NCBI GenBank assembly: GCA_017390945.1
Contig: JAFOZZ010000003.1
Location: forward strand, 1-34,135
Direction of reading: 5' to 3'
Origin: Akkermansia sp.
Lineage (GTDB): Bacteria > Verrucomicrobiota > Verrucomicrobiia > Verrucomicrobiales > Akkermansiaceae
Length of the DNA: 34,135 nt
The position numbers and the translations under genes are program-made. The notes below the pieces were generated by a model that was not told the DNA's origin, ran no database searches, and worked only from the letters and a program-made list of their open reading frames with translations. This document shows, one piece after another, positions 5,228-28,324 of this stretch (positions within the stretch are counted from its first letter, which is position 1; each line of letters begins with the position of its first letter).

Positions 5228-7438
5228 TTATTTCTTGCTCAGAATCTTTTCCGCGAGCTTGAGGATATCCCCTTGCGGTTTCGTGGGGAGCTTCGGCTTG
5301 GATTGAGCGAATCCGAGCTCAAACTTTTCCAGGCTCTTGTTGCGGATGGTGACGTGCTCGACTTTCTCACCATTGTTTTGCGTGACGCCGCGTTCCACTT
5401 CCTCGCTGGCGACTTTCTTGCCCTCCAACTCACTGATGCGGTTGGCAAAGAACATTTCCCAGCGCGGTTTGTAGTACAGGCGGAGCATCTCGGGGAACTG
5501 ACGGTGTGAGTAATCGTTCAGCACGCCGATGTCCGGGCGCCATGTGGTGATGAGTTGCAGCAGGCTGCGGCGCATGGCTGCTTTGTCCTCGGCGGTCGTA
5601 CCACGGTTCATCGCTCCGTTGACAAAGCGGTGCATGAGGAAATATTCCGAGGTGGAGAGCACGGCGGCGCAGTCCTCAATCATCTGAAGGAATGCGGCAC
5701 TTTCCTTGCGGAACGCTGCGGTGTTCTTGTTATCGAATGCCTGCTTGCATTTTTCCAATTGCTTGCGGGCGCGGTCGGCCAGCACCTGGCGGCAGAGGTC
5801 TGCCAGGTCGTAGCGGTAGGTGGAGAGTCTGGTGAGACTTTTACCTGCCTTTTTACCGGCTGCGAGGTAGAGCTTAGCGGCGGCTTCGATGCTCTCGGGT
5901 TTGTAGTACATGTCGGGGGCAGCCCAGGTGGACGCCTTACGCACATTGAGCCCCGGGCGGGCGCACATGATGTTTTCCAGGCTACCCTCACGGCGTTTGT
6001 CGGGGGTGTAGATGCCTTTGGCCAGCAGGTTCAATGCCTCGACAAAGCGCCGGTCCTTGCTGCCATAGCGAGCCCGGGCATAGCGGGTCAGGAAATCATT
6101 GCGGTCAATCTTCTTGTCGTTGTTCATACGTTCCCACACGAGTTCGTAGAACAGCGGATTGGTTTCCAGCCCTTCCGATATCATGCCGATGCCGATGGCC
6201 TTGCTCTTGTCGCGGGTGAGATTTTCCACAACGTCCATACCGCCGAACATGCCGTGCTTGCCACCAAAGTTGGAGAGCTCGCACCACACAAAGGGACGAC
6301 CGGCATAGTTGAAGTCTACCTGCGCTTTGGGCGTCAGGTCCTTTTGCAGCGCAAGAATGACGGTGTGCTGCGGGTCGGTCCCGGCCAGCAGGCGGGCATC
6401 GGGGTTGTGTCCCCAGGCTTGCAGCAGCCATTTGCTGCCGGGGGCGGCTTGCTGCATGGCGGATTGTACAGCGCGGGCTGCTTCATCGAGCACAGTGTTG
6501 CCCTTTTTGCCACCCTCGTGGAAGAGGTCGCCGCCGTATGCTTTGGCCGTGGTGCCGTACACCGCATGCAGGTGCTTGTACCACAGCTTGGCAATTCCCG
6601 GGAAGGCCGGTGCCGTGGGTTGCAGGACGCAGGGGCGATTGTAAGCGCACCATTTACCCTGGGGCAGCAGTTTGCCGTTCAGCCCGGCCTGCGGGAAGTC
6701 ATGAGGCAGGAAGCCAACATAGCCTTGCAGCACCGGCTCCATACCGAGGGATTGCAGACGCTGTACGATGAAGCGCCCCAGCTCCGCCTCGCTGTCGATA
6801 AGAGTTTGGCTCACCGGTCCGCCTTCGCCCTCCAGGTTGCCCATGTTCCACCAGGCGGCATAGCAGGGATTAGGAATGAACTTCTTGATTTTGTCGGCCG
6901 GATAATCCAGCTCGGTGAGGAAGTCCTGCCACACTTTCTCCAGACCGGATGTTACCAGTACGTACTGTACACCATTGAGTGCCATGTAGTCCAGCTCTCG
7001 CTCCCAGCGCTTTTTATCCCAGCTGGCGGAGGTATAGCTGAGCGTGCAGTAATTGTATGCGTAGTTGAAGGGCAGGGCTTCCGGTACCACGATTTTGCGG
7101 GTCGGAATGATGAATGAGGAGCCGGAGGTGTTGTTGCCATTCCAGGAGAAATGAATCTTGGCGACGCGGCGCAGGTAGTAGCCATAGCCACGGATGCATT
7201 CGCGTACATTGGGCGCGCTGACGAGCACGCTCCCGCCCTTGCCCTCAATAACTGGTGATTTCAGCTTCGGGGCTATGGCAAACTGAACACGCCCGGCGAG
7301 CTTCGGGGTCATGCGCTTTACCAGCTGCTCAGCCGCAGCTGTGTCAGAGGCGGCTGTATCAGGTGCAGCATGTGAAACACATGCTGCTATGGGGGCGAGG
7401 CAGGCTAATGCCAGTGCTGAGGTGAAGGTTCCATTCAT
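5228..7438 (-). CDS. Secreted alpha-N-acetylglucosaminidase, GH89 (NAGLU-like)
   Basis: A 736-residue exported glycosidase predicted to cleave terminal alpha-GlcNAc, as found on some gastric mucin O-glycans and heparan sulfate. An N-terminal signal peptide (about 1-24) is followed by a small N-terminal domain and a TIM-barrel region. NAGLU family motifs are visible: AWWNMGNLEG (195-204), GGDLFHEGG with the likely acid/base E308, FVWCELSNFGGKHGMFGG (383-400), and GMISEGLETN with the likely nucleophile E422. The last about 250 residues are the helical C-terminal domain. It lies 85 bp downstream of gspG on the same strand, which suggests it may be a substrate of that secretion system; this is inference. 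No Shine-Dalgarno precedes the ATG. Confidence 0.9.
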   Translation of the reverse strand: MNGTFTSALALACLAPIAACVSHAAPDTAASDTAAAEQLVKRMTPKLAGRVQFAIAPKLKSPVIEGKGGSVLVSAPNVRECIRGYGYYLRRVAKIHFSWNGNNTSGSSFIIPTRKIVVPEALPFNYAYNYCTLSYTSASWDKKRWERELDYMALNGVQYVLVTSGLEKVWQDFLTELDYPADKIKKFIPNPCYAAWWNMGNLEGEGGPVSQTLIDSEAELGRFIVQRLQSLGMEPVLQGYVGFLPHDFPQAGLNGKLLPQGKWCAYNRPCVLQPTAPAFPGIAKLWYKHLHAVYGTTAKAYGGDLFHEGGKKGNTVLDEAARAVQSAMQQAAPGSKWLLQAWGHNPDARLLAGTDPQHTVILALQKDLTPKAQVDFNYAGRPFVWCELSNFGGKHGMFGGMDVVENLTRDKSKAIGIGMISEGLETNPLFYELVWERMNNDKKIDRNDFLTRYARARYGSKDRRFVEALNLLAKGIYTPDKRREGSLENIMCARPGLNVRKASTWAAPDMYYKPESIEAAAKLYLAAGKKAGKSLTRLSTYRYDLADLCRQVLADRARKQLEKCKQAFDNKNTAAFRKESAAFLQMIEDCAAVLSTSEYFLMHRFVNGAMNRGTTAEDKAAMRRSLLQLITTWRPDIGVLNDYSHRQFPEMLRLYYKPRWEMFFANRISELEGKKVASEEVERGVTQNNGEKVEHVTIRNKSLEKFELGFAQSKPKLPTKPQGDILKLAEKILSKK

Positions 7439-8168: not shown

Positions 8169-9461
8169 TTACACGTTCTTAATGATTTCCATCATCGGCA
8201 TGAACATAGCCAGCACGATGCCACCTACCACAACGGCGAGGAACACAATCATGAGCGGCTCCAGCATGGCGGTAAGGGCGGTGACGCTGTTGTCCACCTC
8301 TTCATCGTACACCTCGGCCACCTTCATGAGCATGTCGGGCAGCTGGCCGGTTTCCTCACCTACGTCCACCATGGAAATCATCATGGGCGGGAAGATGTTG
8401 TTGGCGGCGCTCATGGGCGTTACGATGGATTCACCCTCACGCACGGAGTCGTGAATCTTGTTCACGGCGTCGGCTACCACGCTGTTACCGGCGGTGTCGC
8501 GGGTAATCATGAGTGCCTGCAGAATCGGAACACCGGAGGATACAAGCGTGCCGAAAGTACGGGAGAAGCGAGCTACGGCATTCACGCGGGTGAGGTGGCC
8601 GAGCTTAGGAATCTTGAGCGTGAAGGTGTCCATGGCGCGTGCACCCTTGGGCGTGCGCTTCCATACACTCAGGCCTGCAACAGCGGCGATAATCAGACCG
8701 ATAACCAGCACGGCATTGGGCACGAAGGGTATGAGGTCACACGCCATACAGTTGTCGGAGAACCCGAACACGAACTGGGAGAGCGCGGGCAGCTCCATGT
8801 TCTGGCCTTCAAACATTTCCTTGAACTTGGGCACGATAACCAGCATGAGGAAGATAAGAATACCCACGGCAATCACCATAATGATTAGCGGGTAGACCAT
8901 GGCGGACGTTACCTTGCCACGCAGCTTGTTGGCTTTTTCCTGGTATTCAGCCAGACGGTTGAGCACGACTTCGAGCACACCGCCAATCTCACCAGCCTTC
9001 ACCATGTTGACGAAGAGGCGGTTGAACATCTTGGGATAAGCGGAGAGAGCCTCGGAGAAGGTAGAGCCGCCCTGTACAGCCTCACCCAGTGCACCGATGG
9101 TGGCGCGCAGGTTGGGATTGGGCTCCTGCTTGTTGAGCACGTTGAGGCTCTGGAGCAGGGGGAGGCCGGCATCGATAAGGGTGGCCAGCTGGCGGGTGAA
9201 CACCATGAGCTCCTTCTGGCTCACGCTGCCACCGGCTTTGCCGCTCTTCTTGACGGCCTCGCCCTTCTTGCCCTTGGCGCCTTTCTTCTTGGCATCCTTG
9301 GCAGCAGTGGGCTTGGCGCCTTTAGCGGCTTCCTCGCATTCGCGCAGCAGAAGACCCTGTGAGCGAATCATCTCGGCGGCAGCAATCTTGCTGTCGGCTG
9401 TGATGATGCCAGTCTTCTCAACGCCGTTCTGATCCAGCGCGGTATATTTGAAATTAGGCAT
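8169..9461 (-). CDS. gspF: Type II secretion / type IV pilus inner membrane platform protein GspF
   Basis: A 430-residue inner membrane protein that anchors the assembly ATPase and organises pseudopilin addition. It begins with the family pattern FKYTALDQNGVEKTGII, has a Lys/Ala/Gly-rich linker at about 50-75 (KKGAKGKKGEAVKKSG), and then two copies of the T2SSF domain (from KELMVFTRQLATLIDAGLPLL, and from FSRTFGTLVSSGVPILQAL), each followed by hydrophobic helices. It lies between gspE and gspG on the minus strand, ending 6 nt before the gspG start. The Lys-rich linker is longer than usual. The gene sits 78 nt after the upstream gspE stop without a Shine-Dalgarno sequence. Confidence 0.93.
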   Translation of the reverse strand: MPNFKYTALDQNGVEKTGIITADSKIAAAEMIRSQGLLLRECEEAAKGAKPTAAKDAKKKGAKGKKGEAVKKSGKAGGSVSQKELMVFTRQLATLIDAGLPLLQSLNVLNKQEPNPNLRATIGALGEAVQGGSTFSEALSAYPKMFNRLFVNMVKAGEIGGVLEVVLNRLAEYQEKANKLRGKVTSAMVYPLIIMVIAVGILIFLMLVIVPKFKEMFEGQNMELPALSQFVFGFSDNCMACDLIPFVPNAVLVIGLIIAAVAGLSVWKRTPKGARAMDTFTLKIPKLGHLTRVNAVARFSRTFGTLVSSGVPILQALMITRDTAGNSVVADAVNKIHDSVREGESIVTPMSAANNIFPPMMISMVDVGEETGQLPDMLMKVAEVYDEEVDNSVTALTAMLEPLMIVFLAVVVGGIVLAMFMPMMEIIKNV

Positions 9462-9539: not shown

Positions 9540-11207
9540 TTAAGTGTACTTAAGCACTTCTTCGATGGTGGTGTTGCCTTCAAAGATATTCTGGATGCCG
9601 TCTTCGCGCAGGGTGGTCATGCCCAGCTCGATAGCTTTCTGGCGCAGAACAATGGAAGGTACGTTCTCGGTAATGAGCTCGCGGATGGGGTCGCTGGCAT
9701 TCAGCAGCTCGTGGATGCCCTTACGCCCCTTGTAACCGGTGTTGGCGCACTTGTCGCAGCGTGCACCGGTGTAGAACTGCTGCTGGCCCAGAAGCGCCGG
9801 GTTGATACCCAGCTGATTAAGCAGGGAGTTCGACGGCTTGTAGGGGGTCTTGCAGTAGGGGCAGATGGTACGCACCAGTCGCTGTGCCAGCACACCCAGA
9901 ATGGTGGCGGAGAGCAGGAAGGGCTGTACACCCATGTCCACAAAACGCGTGACTGCACCGGCGGCATCGTTCGTGTGAAGCGTGGAGAGCACCAAGTGAC
10001 CCGTCAGAGCAGCCTGAATGGCAATCTGGGCGGTGTCCTGGTCTCGAATTTCGCCCACCAGAATGCGGTCGGGGTCCTGACGCAGGAAGGCGCGCAGCAC
10101 GCGGGGGAAGGTGACGCCGATAGCCTCGTTGATGGGTACCTGCACGATGCCGTCGATGTCGTATTCCACCGGGTCCTCTGCCGTGAGAATCTTGGTGTCG
10201 ATGGTGTTAATTTCTCGCAGAGCGGCGTAAAGGGTGGTGGTCTTACCGGAACCGGTGGGACCTGTCACCACGAAGATACCGTTGGGTTTGTTAACGGTGT
10301 CGATGATGTACTCGTGCAGCTTGGGGGAGAGGTTCAGGTTATCGAGGTTGAGGCTGACGCTGTTGCGGTCGAGCACACGCATTACCACGGATTCACCGTA
10401 CTGGGTGGGCAGGGAGTTCACACGCATGTCCACGCCGCCTTTGCCCATCTTCATCACGATACGACCATCCTGCGGTACGCGGCGCTCTGCGATGTTCATG
10501 CCGGCCATTACCTTTACGCGGGAGATAATCGGGTTGGCCAGGTAGGCAGGGGGAGGAGCCATTTCGTACAAGGCACCGTCCACGCGGTAACGAATCTTGA
10601 ATTCCTTCTCGAAGGGCTCCAGGTGAATATCGGAGGCTTTCTCCTTAACAGCCTGCTCGATAACGAGGTTGACGAACTTGATGATGGGAGCGGCGTTTGC
10701 CTCATCCGTACCATCGCTGCTGCCTACGCTCATGCCGTCCAGCTCGCCGAGCAGGTCGCCCATGGCGGCATCAGCACCGCCGTAGAACTCGCTCACGCGG
10801 GCGCGTACTTCGTAGTCGGCTGCCACGTACAGGTAGACGTCCTGGTTGGTGGCAATGCGCAGGTCGTCAATGGTCTGCGGGTTGAGCGGGTCTTCCAGAC
10901 AGACGTACAGGCCCTCGCCATCGCGGTATTCGATGGGCAGGGCTCCCAGCATACGTGCCTGGGGGGCGGGAATCATGGCCAGCAGGTCCTCGGAGGGAAT
11001 AAAGCCCTCCAGTGAGATGTACTGGGCGCCCACTTCCGTGGCAATCACGCTCCAGAAGTCCTCCGGGCCGCCAATCACGCCGAAGTCGATGAGGGTTTCC
11101 CAGAGCTCCTTGCCGCTGTTGGACATTTCCTCCTTGACGTCGCGCGCCAGGGATTTGTCCATCATGCCGTTGTTGATGAAAACTTCAAGTGCTACATTCG
11201 TATCCAT
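9540..11207 (-). CDS. gspE: Type II secretion / type IV pilus assembly ATPase GspE (second of two)
   Basis: A 555-residue hexameric ATPase that powers pseudopilus or pilus assembly from the cytoplasm. It has an N-terminal T2SSE_N region (about 1-140), an ASDIHLEP motif (191-198), Walker A GPTGSGKT (316-323), Asp box and Walker B around DPDRILVGEIRDQDTA, the His box LSTLHTNDA, and a tetracysteine zinc site (CPYCK and CDKCANTG), typical of GspE/PilB. A neighbouring paralog (11251-12876) has the same architecture. No arginine- or ASDIH-motif loss is seen, so it looks active. Confidence 0.93.
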   Translation of the reverse strand: MDTNVALEVFINNGMMDKSLARDVKEEMSNSGKELWETLIDFGVIGGPEDFWSVIATEVGAQYISLEGFIPSEDLLAMIPAPQARMLGALPIEYRDGEGLYVCLEDPLNPQTIDDLRIATNQDVYLYVAADYEVRARVSEFYGGADAAMGDLLGELDGMSVGSSDGTDEANAAPIIKFVNLVIEQAVKEKASDIHLEPFEKEFKIRYRVDGALYEMAPPPAYLANPIISRVKVMAGMNIAERRVPQDGRIVMKMGKGGVDMRVNSLPTQYGESVVMRVLDRNSVSLNLDNLNLSPKLHEYIIDTVNKPNGIFVVTGPTGSGKTTTLYAALREINTIDTKILTAEDPVEYDIDGIVQVPINEAIGVTFPRVLRAFLRQDPDRILVGEIRDQDTAQIAIQAALTGHLVLSTLHTNDAAGAVTRFVDMGVQPFLLSATILGVLAQRLVRTICPYCKTPYKPSNSLLNQLGINPALLGQQQFYTGARCDKCANTGYKGRKGIHELLNASDPIRELITENVPSIVLRQKAIELGMTTLREDGIQNIFEGNTTIEEVLKYT

Positions 11208-11250: not shown

Positions 11251-12876
11251 TTAGCTGGCGTCGCCGGTGGTTACGCGGATGACTTCTTCTGCCGTGGTGC
11301 GCCCGGCCAGAACCTTACGAATGCCGTCTTCGCGCAGGGTGCGCATGCCCAGCTCGCGAGCGCGCTTACGCAGCTGTGCCGATGTCAGGTTGGAGTTGAT
11401 GAGGCCGCGCACATCGTCCGTTACCTGGAAGATTTCGAAGATGCCCATACGGCCGCGCATACCCTTGCCCTTGCACTTGTCGCAACCGCAGGGATTGGCG
11501 ACCATGACGGGGCGGTTGATGTCGATGCCCAGGGTGCGGGCTTCCTTCTCGGTGAGGGAGCCTTCCATCTTGCAGTTGGCGCACAGGCTGCGGCAGAGTC
11601 GCTGAGCCATCACGGCACGCACGGCGGAGGCGATGAGGAAGCGGTCCACGCCCATGTCAGCAAGACGAGCTACGGAGGACGGGGCGTCGTTCGTGTGAAG
11701 GGTGGAAAGGACGAGGTGACCAGTCATGGCGGCCTGGATGGCGATACCGGCGGTCTCCCCGTCTCGAATTTCACCAATCATGATGATGTTCGGAGCCTGA
11801 CGGAGCATGGCTCGCAGAGCTGCGGCGAAGGTCATGCCGATTTCCGTGCGAATCATTACCTGGTTGATACCGGCCATTTCGTATTCCACCGGGTCTTCAG
11901 CGGTGATAATCTTCTTGTCCGGGCGGTTCAGGTGGTTCAGGCAGGCGTAAAGGGTGGTGGTCTTACCGGAACCGGTGGGGCCTGTTACCAGAATCACACC
12001 ATCGGGCAGGGTGACAAGGCGGTCGAAGGTGGCCTCGTCATCGGAAAGGAAGCCGAGCTGCGGCAGACCGAGTGCCAGAGCGGACTTGTCCAGAATACGC
12101 ATCACCACGGATTCGCCGTGGTTGGTGGGCACGGTGCTCACACGAAGGTCGATGTGGTTGCCGTCGCGCAGGTCGAGCTCGATACGTCCGTCCTGAGGAA
12201 CGCGCTTTTCGGCAATGCTCATGGTGGTGCTCATGACCTTCAGACGGGCAACGATGGGGCCGAGCAGCTTCTTGGGGTGATTGGCTACCTCGACCAGGCG
12301 ACCGTCCACGCGGAAGCGGATGCGGACGCGGTCCTCCATGGGCTCAATGTGAATATCGGACGTGCGCATTTCGTGCGCATCGTTGAACATGTTGTCCACC
12401 AGCTCAATGATGGGAGCTTCTGTGTCACCCTTGGCGTAGGTCTTCTTCTCCGGGTAATACTTCGCAATGGCTTTTTGCAGCCCCGCCTCAGAAGCAACAA
12501 AGAACGTGACCTCGCGACCCAAGAACTGCGGCAGGCTGTCGAGAGTCTCCATCGCAAAGGGGTCGGAGATAGCCACCTGGAGCGAGTAGCCGTCATCGCC
12601 AATGGGCAGGAAGCCCACGCGACGAGCCAGCTCGCCCTTCACGCTGGCAATAATCTCAGGGTCAATCTCGAAGGTGGTCAGATCCACATACTCCATTGCT
12701 GAGTTGTAGGCCGCTACCTGGGCGACGTATTCAGCAGTAAAGTATCCATTTTGGATGAGGTGGTCGATGGCGCTGTCCAGCGGCGAAAGCTCCGCACGCA
12801 CGGCATCGAGCGTGCCGGCATCTATGGCTCCTGCCTCTACCAGGAGATCCAGAAGATAATTTTCGTTTGAGTACAC
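11251..12876 (-). CDS. Type II secretion / type IV pilus assembly ATPase GspE/PilB (first of two)
   Basis: A 541-residue paralog of the next gene, with an N-terminal T2SSE_N domain (about 1-140), RTSDIHIEP (171-179), Walker A GPTGSGKT (299-306), Walker B region APNIIMIGEIRDGETA, LSTLHTNDA, and a zinc site made of CANCK and GCDKCKGKG. The start is GTG at 12876 (no in-frame ATG nearby gives a better N-terminus). It is the first gene after a strong sigma70-like promoter and leads the gspE-gspE-gspF-gspG operon. Two tandem ATPases with one GspF suggest that one serves assembly with a different partner or pseudopilus, or that the machine uses both; this cannot be decided from sequence. Confidence 0.92.
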   Translation of the reverse strand: MYSNENYLLDLLVEAGAIDAGTLDAVRAELSPLDSAIDHLIQNGYFTAEYVAQVAAYNSAMEYVDLTTFEIDPEIIASVKGELARRVGFLPIGDDGYSLQVAISDPFAMETLDSLPQFLGREVTFFVASEAGLQKAIAKYYPEKKTYAKGDTEAPIIELVDNMFNDAHEMRTSDIHIEPMEDRVRIRFRVDGRLVEVANHPKKLLGPIVARLKVMSTTMSIAEKRVPQDGRIELDLRDGNHIDLRVSTVPTNHGESVVMRILDKSALALGLPQLGFLSDDEATFDRLVTLPDGVILVTGPTGSGKTTTLYACLNHLNRPDKKIITAEDPVEYEMAGINQVMIRTEIGMTFAAALRAMLRQAPNIIMIGEIRDGETAGIAIQAAMTGHLVLSTLHTNDAPSSVARLADMGVDRFLIASAVRAVMAQRLCRSLCANCKMEGSLTEKEARTLGIDINRPVMVANPCGCDKCKGKGMRGRMGIFEIFQVTDDVRGLINSNLTSAQLRKRARELGMRTLREDGIRKVLAGRTTAEEVIRVTTGDAS

Positions 12877-23880: not shown

Positions 23881-23902
23881 GCCCAAATGATGCATGGGGA
23901 TG

Positions 23903-23939
23903 AAAAAAACGCGCACGGCGATGGGCTCGTCGTGCGCGT
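23903..23939 (-). terminator. Strong rho-independent terminator after the M16/clan-CD-like pair
   Basis: A 13-bp stem (23909-23921 with 23927-23939, one G-U pair) and a 5-nt loop are followed on the minus strand by seven T. It is 21 nt past the stop codon at 23961. Confidence 0.88.
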
Positions 23940-23960
23940 CTGGTGAATCTGGTGGAGCGA

Positions 23961-25373
23961 TTACTTGATGGTAATGGTGCGAGTTTCGCCCTTCTTCATT
24001 TCCAGTTCCGGGAACAGGATGAAGTCGTTGGTGAATACTGCATCGGCGGCATTACATCCGGTAGCTCCCTTGCCGGTAGCAGGTGTGGGGAACCAGATAC
24101 CGAGGCGGCCCTTGTAATCGCGGTTGGCGGTTACAGTGACAGTCTTCTCGTTCTGCCAGCTGGTAGCCAGCGGGCGAGAGTTGCGGGAGGTGTCGACGGT
24201 GGCACTCCAGGCAGGGTCGCCGTAGAAAGCAACGACGTCGCGGTCATGCACCAGGCCCATAGCATCCTTGGCATTTTGCTGCGTGAGCTGTACGCCGGAG
24301 CGCATGAGGTCTCGCTGGAATGCGAAGTCGAGCTGTTCGCCATTGAACTGAACCGTGAGCAATCTGGGGTCGACTTTCAGCGTGTCGTTGAGGATGAACT
24401 GATTGTTCAGGAACCAAGCTTCTGCCAGCGTGGTGTTGTCCACCGTGTCAACAAAGGTGCCGAACGTGCCCCAGCCACCGGCGCCGTACCAGGAGGGAAC
24501 GGTGTAGCCGACCACCTGATTGCAGGTGTAGGCCGAGAGGGCGGTAATAGCCATGCTCTGATTGGTGTTGCGGGCGTCGCCGAACAGGCAGTTGCCTGCT
24601 GCCAGCCATACGCGAGTCTGACCATCGGGCTCGATGGCCGGGCACTTCTTGTTAGCCGCAAGCTCTGCCAGTTTGGAGGCATCGCCACGATTAGCGGCAG
24701 AGAGCGCCGGGAAGAAATCAATCATATTCTGCTGGCTCAGCTCGTAGAAACGATTGTTCGACGGGAAAATGAGACCGCGGGAGAACGGCATTTCCAGATT
24801 GAACTGCGTGGCATGGCTGGATGTTACGACCAGCTGAGAGCCATTCTTGCTGAGAGCCTTGCCGAAGAGTGACTGCATGCCATTCTTGCCCTCGGGGGTA
24901 TCCTTGCCGTACACGGTTGTGGTAGGCTCGGTGTAGCCCTGCTGTTCCAGCACCGGTGCATCGGTCCAGTCGGTGATGCAGTAGCTCTGCTCAAAGGGGT
25001 GCCAACCGACGTTGGTGGTGCCCAGTACGCGCTTGATGACAAGCGGCTGAGTGTCCTCGGCAATACGCAGCGCATCTTCTGCGCTGTAGCCGGTGACAAT
25101 ACCCCAGATGCAGTCACCCCACATGTCGCTGTCCACCTTGCGGGCGGCACGGTGCAGGGCATTGACGGCCTCGCGGCCTACCTCCTGCGGTTGCAGTACA
25201 ACAGCAGCGTAGTGTGCACCGGCTTCACGAAGTGCCTGGGCAATGGCGTCCTCGGTGAGCTTTTCCACGGCTACAACCTGTGCGCCGGGGTACTTCTTCA
25301 CCAGCGCGGCAATCACCTTCTGCCACTCGGGCAGCTGTACTGTGGGTACAGTGGTGAGTACGGTGTAACCCAT
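23961..25373 (-). CDS. Possible gingipain-like (clan CD, C25-type) domain protein, out of frame with the M16 peptidase
   Basis: A 470-residue reading frame from ATG 25373, open back to 25472. The C-terminal ORF resembles C25-type cysteine peptidase proteins: hydrophobic strands end in the possible catalytic His (LVVTSSHATQ, H187) and Cys (WLAAGNCLFGD, C262), and a VAFYGDPAWS segment is reminiscent of C25 relatives. The residue after His is Ala rather than Gly, so the assignment is tentative. As a separate protein it would have no signal peptide. In frame upstream of its ATG, it continues as an Ala/Pro/Glu linker (AEEAAAPAAPAAAAEEPQP), which would join it to the M16 peptidase if one base were restored near 25454. 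No Shine-Dalgarno precedes ATG 25373. Confidence 0.7.
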   Translation of the reverse strand: MGYTVLTTVPTVQLPEWQKVIAALVKKYPGAQVVAVEKLTEDAIAQALREAGAHYAAVVLQPQEVGREAVNALHRAARKVDSDMWGDCIWGIVTGYSAEDALRIAEDTQPLVIKRVLGTTNVGWHPFEQSYCITDWTDAPVLEQQGYTEPTTTVYGKDTPEGKNGMQSLFGKALSKNGSQLVVTSSHATQFNLEMPFSRGLIFPSNNRFYELSQQNMIDFFPALSAANRGDASKLAELAANKKCPAIEPDGQTRVWLAAGNCLFGDARNTNQSMAITALSAYTCNQVVGYTVPSWYGAGGWGTFGTFVDTVDNTTLAEAWFLNNQFILNDTLKVDPRLLTVQFNGEQLDFAFQRDLMRSGVQLTQQNAKDAMGLVHDRDVVAFYGDPAWSATVDTSRNSRPLATSWQNEKTVTVTANRDYKGRLGIWFPTPATGKGATGCNAADAVFTNDFILFPELEMKKGETRTITIK

Positions 25374-25472
25374 TTCTGCGCCCTTGCCGGTAGCGACAGG
25401 CTGAGGCTCCTCGGCTGCGGCTGCCGGAGCTGCCGGAGCTGCGGCCTCCTCGGCTCGGGAGCCGGTACGCCA
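25313..25472 (-). other. Frame overlap where M16 and clan-CD-like frames would join
   Basis: The M16 frame ends at 25313, and the -1 frame is open from just after TGA at 25473-25475. A single base added near 25454 (GAG CCG to GAG GCC) would make one continuous frame whose sequence (PAPE-AEEAAAPAAP..) is a typical flexible linker. The current M16 frame gives an unnatural Arg/Gln-rich tail. No clear slippery heptamer is seen, which argues for a deletion or sequencing error rather than programmed shifting. Confidence 0.65.
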
Positions 25473-28324
25473 TCAGCGGGCATGGTGAAGTAGAAGTTGG
25501 CGTTGTCCTTGCCGAATACTTCTTTGGCGAGAGTCTGGATTTCCTCCAGCGTGATGGAGCGCAGGTCATCCAGCACGTCGCGGATGAGGCCAATCTGCTC
25601 CGGGTCACTCTGCAGGCTGGCCAGGCTGCTGCACCAGAAGGCGTTCTGTCGCATGCTCTTCTCCGTGGAGGAGATGAGCGGGCGGATAGCGCAGTCGAAA
25701 TCCTCCTGCGTGATGGTGGTGCCACGGCCAAGGCCGGTGAGGAGGCTGTCCATGGCGGCGCTCACCTTCTCGCGGTTGCTCTTCACACCGGCGCTCACTG
25801 CGGAGATGGTAGCGGCGTTCTTGAGATCCGGGTTGAGGGAGATGCGGACGAAGGGAGAGTAGGCCTCACCCATTTCGGCGCGGATGCCGTCGAACAGCTT
25901 CTCGCGAGCAATGGCGCACAGTACCGTCAGGCGGCGGTTGCGGCGGCGATCCATACCGTCACCGGCGGGGCGTACCTGGGTCACGAGCGTCTTGTCCAGT
26001 GAGGTGGGGTATGCGAAGAACTCGCGCTGTCCCCAGGGCTGGAAGTTGACGCTGCGCTGAGCTTCCGTGGGCTCGGTGAACTCGGCATTGCGCTGGGGCA
26101 TGGCACCGAACGTGCGCTCGATGATGGGCAGGGCGGCCTCTACGTCGAAATCACCCACGATAGTGACTTCGATAGCGCCCTTCTGCAGGTAGGGCTCCAG
26201 GGCGGACTTCACGTCATCCATGGTGATGGCAGTCACCTGTTCCTGAGAGGGGACGGTGAAGCGGGGATCATTGCCATAGAGAGCCTTGGCGGACTGCATG
26301 GTGTAGGCACCCTCGGGCGTGGTGGTGAGCTTGCGGTACACGCTGGGCAGGTTGCGGTGAAGCATGCTGATGGCCTCGGGGCGGTAGCCGGGGTGCAGGA
26401 TGTTGGCTACGATGAGCTTGCATTGCATCTCGAGGTCTTTTTCCGTCGTGCCACCGGAGAAGGTGAAACGGCGGTCGGACATGCCGAAGTTCAGGTCGAC
26501 ATTGTGACCCATCATGATACGCTTGAGCTCATCGAGGTCGTGCTCGGCCAGAGCGCTCAGGCGCATGACGTTGTCGGCCACCATGTTCAGGCCTGGTGTG
26601 GTGGGCAGCAGCATTGTGCCGCCGTCGACAGCAGCCGATACGGTCATAGCGCCTTTGCGGAAGGCGGTCTTCTTCAGGTTGACGCGTACACCATTGGAAA
26701 GGGTGAGGGTGGTGACATCGAGGTCAGCAATGTGCTCTTTCTTCACGATGCTGCCGGGCTCGCCCACATTGTCGTAGGCAAAGGGCTTGGCCGGACGCAG
26801 CTCGGGCTTCTGAACCTCCATGGCGGCGGAGGCCTGGAAGGTCTCGCGCAGGCCAGCCTCGGTCAGCCCCTCGGGGATGGAGCCCGACATGGTGAGCTTG
26901 GCGCGGTTGTAGTCGAACGCGGCCTCCAGTGCGGCGCGGCAGCAGTCGGGATTCTGCGAGATGAGTTGCAGCGCACCCTGCAGCACCTTCATGCTTTCCT
27001 CGGGAGAGGTGGGAATGGTGCGCTCCGCAATGTGGTCGACCAGGCGGTTGGCCATGTCGGCAGCCTGTACGGACTCCCAGGTCTGCGTGGCGTGGGTGAT
27101 GCTGGAGGCGATGGCGGACAGGCTCTCCTGGAACTCGTGCGGCTCGAAGCCGTACTTGATGGCCTTGCGTAGCTCCTGCTCGGTGGTGGCAAGTGCCTCT
27201 TTCCACTTGTTCGGGGCGGCGGTTACGGAGAAGCCGAATGACTGGGAGATATCAAACATCTCGCCCTCCGATACGCTGGCCTTGTGGAAGGGGGCATCGG
27301 CGCGCTGGGAGATGCGGCTGAGGCGCTGGTTGAGCATCTGGCAAGCCAGCTGCAAGGGGAAGTCCTTCACGCGCTGCTCGAAGCTGTCGGTCTTGAGCTT
27401 CCAGGGGTTGGCCGTTGTTGCCATGATGCTGACGGTAGCCTGTTCCTTGTTATGCAGCAGGCGTTCGCTGGCACCGGTGTTGGTCAGGCTGCCATTATCC
27501 GGGCGCACCGGGTCGGCGCTGGCCTCCATGCTGTCGAAGTACTTGTGTACCCAGTTTGTGGCAGTGGCCGGGTCAACATCACCGGTGATGATGACCGTCA
27601 TGCGGCTGGGAATGTAGGTCTCCTTGTAGTATTTGCGGAAAGCTTCGTAGGGAGCATTGCGAATCACCTCTTCCAGACCGATGGGCATGAACTTAGCCAC
27701 ACGGGAGCCTTCGCAGAGCTGGTCAATCATACCCAGCATGGCGCGGTAGCTCTCGGAGTCGCGGCTCTTGAGCTCGCTTACGATGATGCCACGCTCGTGG
27801 TCAATCGCCTCGTCCTCCAGGCTGGCGCCATCGGCAAAATCGCGCATGATGGTGAGGGCAAAGTCTACAGTCTCGTCCTTCAGGTTGGGCAGGTCGAGCA
27901 TGTATACCGTGCGCTGGAGCGAGGTGTACGCATTGGCATCGCCACCGAAGCCCAGACCCAGCTTCTGCATGGCCGGGATAAGCTCGCCGCGCTTAAAGTT
28001 GCGGCTGCCGTTGAATACCATGTGTTCCAGGAAGTGGGAGATGCCGCTCGTTTCTGTTTGCTCATCCAGCGAACCAGTGGAGACATACAGGCGAATGCTG
28101 GCGCGGCCAGCGGGTTCCTTGGTGGGGCGAATGATGTAGCTGAGCCCGTTGGCGAGCTTGCCTTGCGTCAGCAAGGGGTCTTTTACCAGTTCCATCTGCT
28201 CGGCAGCAGGTGCCTGGATGGTTTGCATCTGCTCCTGGTTAGGAGCCTCTGCTGCATCCTGAGCAAAAGTCGGCGTGGCTGTAATAGCCAGCCCCAATAT
28301 GGCGGAGGTGGTACTTCTGTTCAT
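25313..28324 (-). CDS. Secreted M16 family zinc metallopeptidase (pitrilysin-like), with out-of-frame C-terminal tail
   Basis: A 1003-residue protein with a signal peptide (about 1-21, ending ..TFAQDA). The first M16 domain carries the inverted zinc motif HFLEH (H97, H101) with the third ligand E177 in DHERGII about 76 residues on. A second inactive M16-like domain follows (from about 530), as usual for the two-domain family. The last 46 residues after about residue 957 (RRPQLRQLRQ and onward) are Arg/Gln/Pro-rich and read as the wrong frame of an Ala/Pro linker. The real protein may therefore end in the -1 frame, fused to the next domain (about 1,450 residues in all). The ATG at 28324 fits the signal peptide. 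Confidence 0.88.
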   Translation of the reverse strand: MNRSTTSAILGLAITATPTFAQDAAEAPNQEQMQTIQAPAAEQMELVKDPLLTQGKLANGLSYIIRPTKEPAGRASIRLYVSTGSLDEQTETSGISHFLEHMVFNGSRNFKRGELIPAMQKLGLGFGGDANAYTSLQRTVYMLDLPNLKDETVDFALTIMRDFADGASLEDEAIDHERGIIVSELKSRDSESYRAMLGMIDQLCEGSRVAKFMPIGLEEVIRNAPYEAFRKYYKETYIPSRMTVIITGDVDPATATNWVHKYFDSMEASADPVRPDNGSLTNTGASERLLHNKEQATVSIMATTANPWKLKTDSFEQRVKDFPLQLACQMLNQRLSRISQRADAPFHKASVSEGEMFDISQSFGFSVTAAPNKWKEALATTEQELRKAIKYGFEPHEFQESLSAIASSITHATQTWESVQAADMANRLVDHIAERTIPTSPEESMKVLQGALQLISQNPDCCRAALEAAFDYNRAKLTMSGSIPEGLTEAGLRETFQASAAMEVQKPELRPAKPFAYDNVGEPGSIVKKEHIADLDVTTLTLSNGVRVNLKKTAFRKGAMTVSAAVDGGTMLLPTTPGLNMVADNVMRLSALAEHDLDELKRIMMGHNVDLNFGMSDRRFTFSGGTTEKDLEMQCKLIVANILHPGYRPEAISMLHRNLPSVYRKLTTTPEGAYTMQSAKALYGNDPRFTVPSQEQVTAITMDDVKSALEPYLQKGAIEVTIVGDFDVEAALPIIERTFGAMPQRNAEFTEPTEAQRSVNFQPWGQREFFAYPTSLDKTLVTQVRPAGDGMDRRRNRRLTVLCAIAREKLFDGIRAEMGEAYSPFVRISLNPDLKNAATISAVSAGVKSNREKVSAAMDSLLTGLGRGTTITQEDFDCAIRPLISSTEKSMRQNAFWCSSLASLQSDPEQIGLIRDVLDDLRSITLEEIQTLAKEVFGKDNANFYFTMPADGVPAPEPRRPQLRQLRQPQPRSLSLSLPARAQKWVTPYSPLYPQYSCPSGRR

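Follow-up and report, generated by a model that had tools for sequence, protein, structure and literature searches.

Akkermansia genomes encode a predicted exported M16 metallopeptidase fused to a gingipain-like clan CD domain

The M16 metallopeptidases PqqL and FusC are periplasmic single-chain clam-shell peptidases (PMC6793856, PMC12731061) and have been reported with TonB-dependent transporters (PMC6793856). In the peptidases of clan CD, a His and Cys dyad is situated at the C-terminal ends of strands β3 and β4 (PMC4357240). We analyzed a 34,135-nt stretch of Akkermansia sp. DNA (here the window), in which two minus-strand open reading frames (ORFs) in different frames, 25313-28324 (1,003 aa, an M16 protein) and 23961-25373 (470 aa), bring together relatives of both kinds of enzyme. 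The reading that we prefer, with a probability of roughly 0.78, is that they represent an exported, two-chemistry tethered protease composed of a PqqL/FusC-like M16 part, a linker, and a gingipain-like domain, the copy in the window being one base off. We found no report of the fusion protein in the open-access literature, most subscription papers lying outside that search. The features of the locus are as follows.

28262..28324, minus strand: predicted Sec signal peptide, MNRSTTSAILGLAITATPTFA, read from the translation
28022..28036, minus strand: zinc-site motif HFLEH, residues 97-101, from the alignment
27773..27796, minus strand: ERGIIVSE, residues 177-184, carrying the distal zinc-ligand Glu, from the alignment
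25454..28324, minus strand: M16 metallopeptidase part, 957 residues with two M16 halves, from Pfam and solved structures
25447..25472, minus strand: interval of the single-base frame break in the Pro/Ala/Glu linker, from the frame opening at 25472 and the 80-nt gap
25374..25453, minus strand: predicted disordered linker between the proteases, from the linkers of relatives and the model of L080
23961..25373, minus strand: gingipain-like clan CD domain, 470 aa, including a C-terminal β domain, from AlphaFold2 and structure alignment
24813..24815, minus strand: candidate catalytic His, H187 (SSHAT), from C25 alignment and conservation
24588..24590, minus strand: candidate catalytic Cys, C262 (GNCLFG), from C25 alignment and conservation
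23902..23941, minus strand: intrinsic terminator after the second domain (hairpin of -22.3 kcal/mol, z of -5.9, then seven U)

The M16 part has two homologous halves and is recovered above the Pfam cutoff by both PF00675 (E = 2.5e-23, 83 bits) and PF05193 (E = 3.5e-33, 115 bits, in two stretches), and its nearest solved structures are 9ldy (E = 5.3e-69) and PqqL (6ofs; E = 1.7e-50). The HxxEH motif is present in all 73 alignment rows that cover the site (74 rows in total), and the two Glu residues of ERGIIVSE are kept in 74 of 74, one of them being presumably the distal zinc ligand. The flanking ORFs that were scanned, a subset of those in the window, are iPGM and PanC, with no transporter among them. 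Elsewhere in the window are two adjacent GspE/PilB-type T2SSE ATPases (9540-11207 and 11251-12876, both minus strand) followed by a T2SSF protein at 8169-9461, and an α-N-acetylglucosaminidase with all three Pfam parts of NAGLU (5228-7438, minus strand), which fits mucin glycan use.

The stretch of the first ORF that is comparable to M16 orthologs ends at about residue 957 (25454), and its last 46 residues (PRRPQLRQLRQPQPRSLSLSLPARAQKW...) form an Arg/Gln/Pro tail with the look of a wrong frame, just as and just where the first-pass annotation had placed it. The alternative frame, open from 25472, reads AEEAAAPAAPAAAAEEPQPVATGKGAEMGYTV, an Ala/Glu/Pro linker that runs up to GKGAE and then into the 470-residue domain; the corresponding GKGA(E/D) is the end of the linker in relatives such as L081, L082, and L120. 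The gap between the M16 part and the domain is 80 nt in the window (2 mod 3), and it is a multiple of 3 in all of the fused relatives but L103, which is broken further on. Translation probably does not begin naturally at the ATG at 25373, because no signal peptide follows it, the same ATG lies within the unbroken ORF of L081, and the stand-alone relatives of the domain have N termini with signal-peptide-like segments. As assembled, the copy in the window thus reads as a putative truncated M16 protein and a leaderless second ORF.

L080 and L081, the relatives closest to the window, each have a single unbroken frame and are 83 to 84% identical to it in the M16 part and 79 to 81% identical in the C-terminal domain; such identities within one frame argue that the fusion is not due to chance. 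The break in the window is therefore isolated and, since L080 and L081 are unbroken and L088 and L103 are broken elsewhere, is a local lesion or consensus error rather than a matter of design. We conclude that it is a consensus error or a strain-level deletion of one base in an assembled draft (G000, 225 contigs, 87% complete). The other two broken copies also come from drafts, and their breaks lie within the M16 part (L088) and around residue 22 of the domain that follows it (L103). Programmed frameshifting in the linker, which would yield a short and a long product, is hardly credible: a break in a flexible linker is where a shift could be tolerated, but the intact relatives require none, the first-pass annotation noted no slippery site, and none stands out in the aligned segment. 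This bears out the earlier preference for a deletion or sequencing error over programmed shifting.

The proposal that one frame break splits one protein is also supported by the other genomes of the genus. The domain is present in 55 of 59 Akkermansia genomes, and in 47 of these 55 both parts share an open frame of about 1,290 to 1,640 codons (a contig end truncates two of the 47); this group includes G004, G015, and G053, each of which is a single-contig genome. Counted by locus, 51 of the 59 named Akkermansia loci are fused and unbroken, including those of the isolates A. muciniphila CSUN-56 (L123), a mouse A. muciniphila (L130), and A. glycaniphila Pyt (L113). One genome that is 99% complete (G041) lacks both the domain and a close M16 ortholog, and a search of plasmids did not find the domain. 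A strong hairpin followed by a U run lies 3' of the second domain, with none comparable between the two parts, a placement in keeping with a single transcript. Upstream of the M16 start, a sequence resembling a promoter (28371-28343) scored no better than chance for the region and was set aside.

Comparison of the second domain with Pfam, NCBIfam, PADLOC models, and PDB sequences returned nothing convincing, and weak matches such as that to MamM were dropped as chance. Its AlphaFold2 model, made with 38 relatives, is of high confidence (pLDDT of 94.5, pTM of 0.94), and a Foldseek search of the PDB with it gave gingipain K as the sole significant match (E = 1.2e-7). In structure alignments with VIA-align, the gingipains RgpB (Z of 23.3 with 4ief over 276 residues at an rmsd of 3.1, and 22.9) and Kgp (Z of 21.5) were followed by Csx29 (Z of 13.8), with CHAT/caspase-like proteins below the gingipains. 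The predicted structure is thus of the caspase/gingipain type of clan CD fold, as had been proposed from the letters of the sequence. That proposal was sustained in the fold and in the alignment and conservation of the dyad, with the qualifications that the C25 model PF01364 does not detect the domain and that the usual Gly is missing after the His. PF01364 had no match in the window genome, nor in the control genomes, nor in an hmmscan of the domain and its relatives, and it does detect other proteins of the same phylum. On the basis of the modeled fold, we assign the domain to clan CD but not to C25, because the profile match, the residue after the His, and the His-Cys spacing all depart. 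The domain appears to represent a gingipain-like family that has not been described.

Same-phylum proteins collected with PF01364 served as the C25 comparison set. An hhalign comparison of the domain profile with this set (E = 9.8e-5, probability of 58%) pairs H187 with the invariant His and C262 with the invariant Cys; it scores 42.3, and none of 40 column shuffles exceeded 23.8. In the model, H187 follows a strand at residues 181 to 184 and C262 follows a strand at 254 to 258, so that the predicted dyad stands at strand ends as in clan CD. The Gly beside the catalytic His that is a feature of the clan is absent from the window (S186-H187-A188); many distant stand-alone relatives have a Gly before the His. 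Both residues are invariant in all 24 stand-alone relatives, which span Verrucomicrobiota, Planctomycetota, Lentisphaerota, and Bacteroidota, and the dyad is kept in 61 of 72 Akkermansia rows. The motifs SSHAT and AGNCLFGD, named in the first-pass annotation as possible His and Cys motifs, therefore carry conserved residues that fall on the C25 dyad.

The linker of the fused relatives is 27 to 276 nt long and variable in sequence. A model of L080 that comprises the C-terminal half of the M16 part, the linker, and the domain, with the N-terminal M16 half left out, has two confident folded bodies, a linker with a pLDDT of 34 to 39, and a pTM of 0.54, and it predicts no fixed docking to the M16 C-terminal half. 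Given the disordered linker and the low overall pTM in this model, the two bodies are more likely to be flexibly tethered than docked in a fixed arrangement.

This prediction bears on a different understanding of the second domain, in which it would be a module that docks or scaffolds the M16 enzyme and not a working peptidase, its dyad being an ancestral residue. What speaks for such a module is a fully supported clade of 11 fused proteins (L114-L118, L121, L122, L126, L127, L133, and L142; most samples labeled Lapin [rabbit]) in which the Cys is replaced by Gly, with a nested clade of six in which the His is also replaced, by Pro or Gln; the M16 zinc motif is intact throughout. We nevertheless consider it unlikely, since the dyad is retained in the other Akkermansia rows and in every stand-alone relative, no fixed docking is predicted, and the domain of the dead-dyad clade evolves faster than its M16 part, as under relaxed constraint. 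Mean identity within that clade is 59% for the domain versus 67% for M16, and other pairs at a similar M16 distance have 69% versus 70%. Further, the Cys was lost first and the His only in lineages already without the Cys, the order expected for loss of a catalytic dyad. The clade shows that the fused protein retains some use without its predicted cysteine chemistry, which, as read from these substitutions, is not indispensable everywhere.

Natural separations of the two parts are also found. In one lineage (L089 and L124), in L112, and in L128, an M16 gene with an early stop is followed by an adjacent gene for the domain with a signal-peptide-like start, and in L110 and L136, the domain is sited at another locus than the M16 gene. 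The M16 ortholog stands alone in G023 and G009, the genomes with the domain elsewhere (L110/L136), and in G007 and G035. In all, four Akkermansia lineages have separate genes, as do all of the non-Akkermansia relatives seen, whose domain genes are roughly 450 to 560 codons long except for the longer open frames of L146 (Planctomycetota; 1,082 codons) and L149 (Lentisphaerota; 694 codons). Judged by eye, in the region 658-7350 of L143 (Gelidibacter maritimus), the stand-alone domain gene comes after ORFs for SusD-type and other lipoprotein-like proteins. The first-pass annotation had regarded a two-gene arrangement of homologs as speaking against the fusion; this arrangement is real in the lineages just named but does not occur in that of the window. 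These cases speak for reading the pair of ORFs in the window as a natural gene split as well, but the real splits have an early M16 stop and a signal-peptide-like second start, and the window has neither; its M16 tail is linker read out of frame and its nearest relatives are fused, leaving a natural split very improbable.

The trees of both parts require at least five changes between the fused and separate states. One fusion near the base of Akkermansia followed by four later separations would be the simplest history; there may instead have been several fusions, and a separation requires a new start and signal peptide. In either case, tethering is not indispensable everywhere, given the four Akkermansia lineages with separate genes. 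The same sister lineages would suit a cysteine domain whose main role is to cut the linker in cis and release the M16 part, as clan CD enzymes frequently self-process (PMC4357240). We judge this role quite unlikely, as the linkers vary in length and do not have a cleavage motif in common, and as the dead-dyad clade has kept the fusion.

We accordingly return to the tethered protease as the preferred reading. It would be one exported protein of about 1,430 to 1,640 residues in which a disordered Pro/Ala/Glu linker joins an M16 zinc peptidase to a clan CD domain. The cysteine domain would cleave exported or imported proteins endoproteolytically, and the M16 clam-shell, admitting peptides or small proteins, would finish the cut pieces on the same molecule. 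The comparisons themselves show the fusion, the isolation of the break, the fold, a dyad that is both alignable and conserved, and an intact zinc motif. We infer the export, which is read from the N terminus only, as well as both activities and the cooperation of the halves. A broader proposal, which we favor with some reserve, is that the domain founds an undescribed clan CD family that extends across several phyla, was joined to M16 in Akkermansia, and decayed to a single chemistry in one lineage.

The frame break is of little interest in itself; the points of interest are the fusion and the unannotated gingipain-like family. If active, the protein would unite two chemistries in one exported protease and would bear on the use of mucin proteins or peptides. 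Akkermansia muciniphila is a much-studied gut commensal, and its isolates carry a protein of which a gingipain-like third is unannotated. The repeated separation of the parts and the loss of the nucleophile offer a natural experiment on the role of each half.

With RgpB and Kgp, the second domain shares the fold over residues 1 to 396, a C-terminal β domain, a His and a Cys after successive strands, and, toward the end of the catalytic domain, a conserved GDP motif. Unlike them, it is missed by PF01364, has Ala instead of Gly after the His and a longer His-Cys stretch (75 residues), and is fused to M16 in Akkermansia, its identity to them being 12%; its stand-alone family members are without an N-terminal prodomain. 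Csx29 and other caspase-like CRISPR regulators have a clan CD-type fold as well (Z of 13 to 14), but they are a far weaker match, intracellular, and of unrelated context. PqqL and FusC, to which the M16 part is closest among named proteins of solved structure, are likewise exported single chains that contain HxxEH and two M16 halves. The Akkermansia fusion has a second protease attached, and no TonB-dependent transporter gene was seen among the flanking ORFs scanned.
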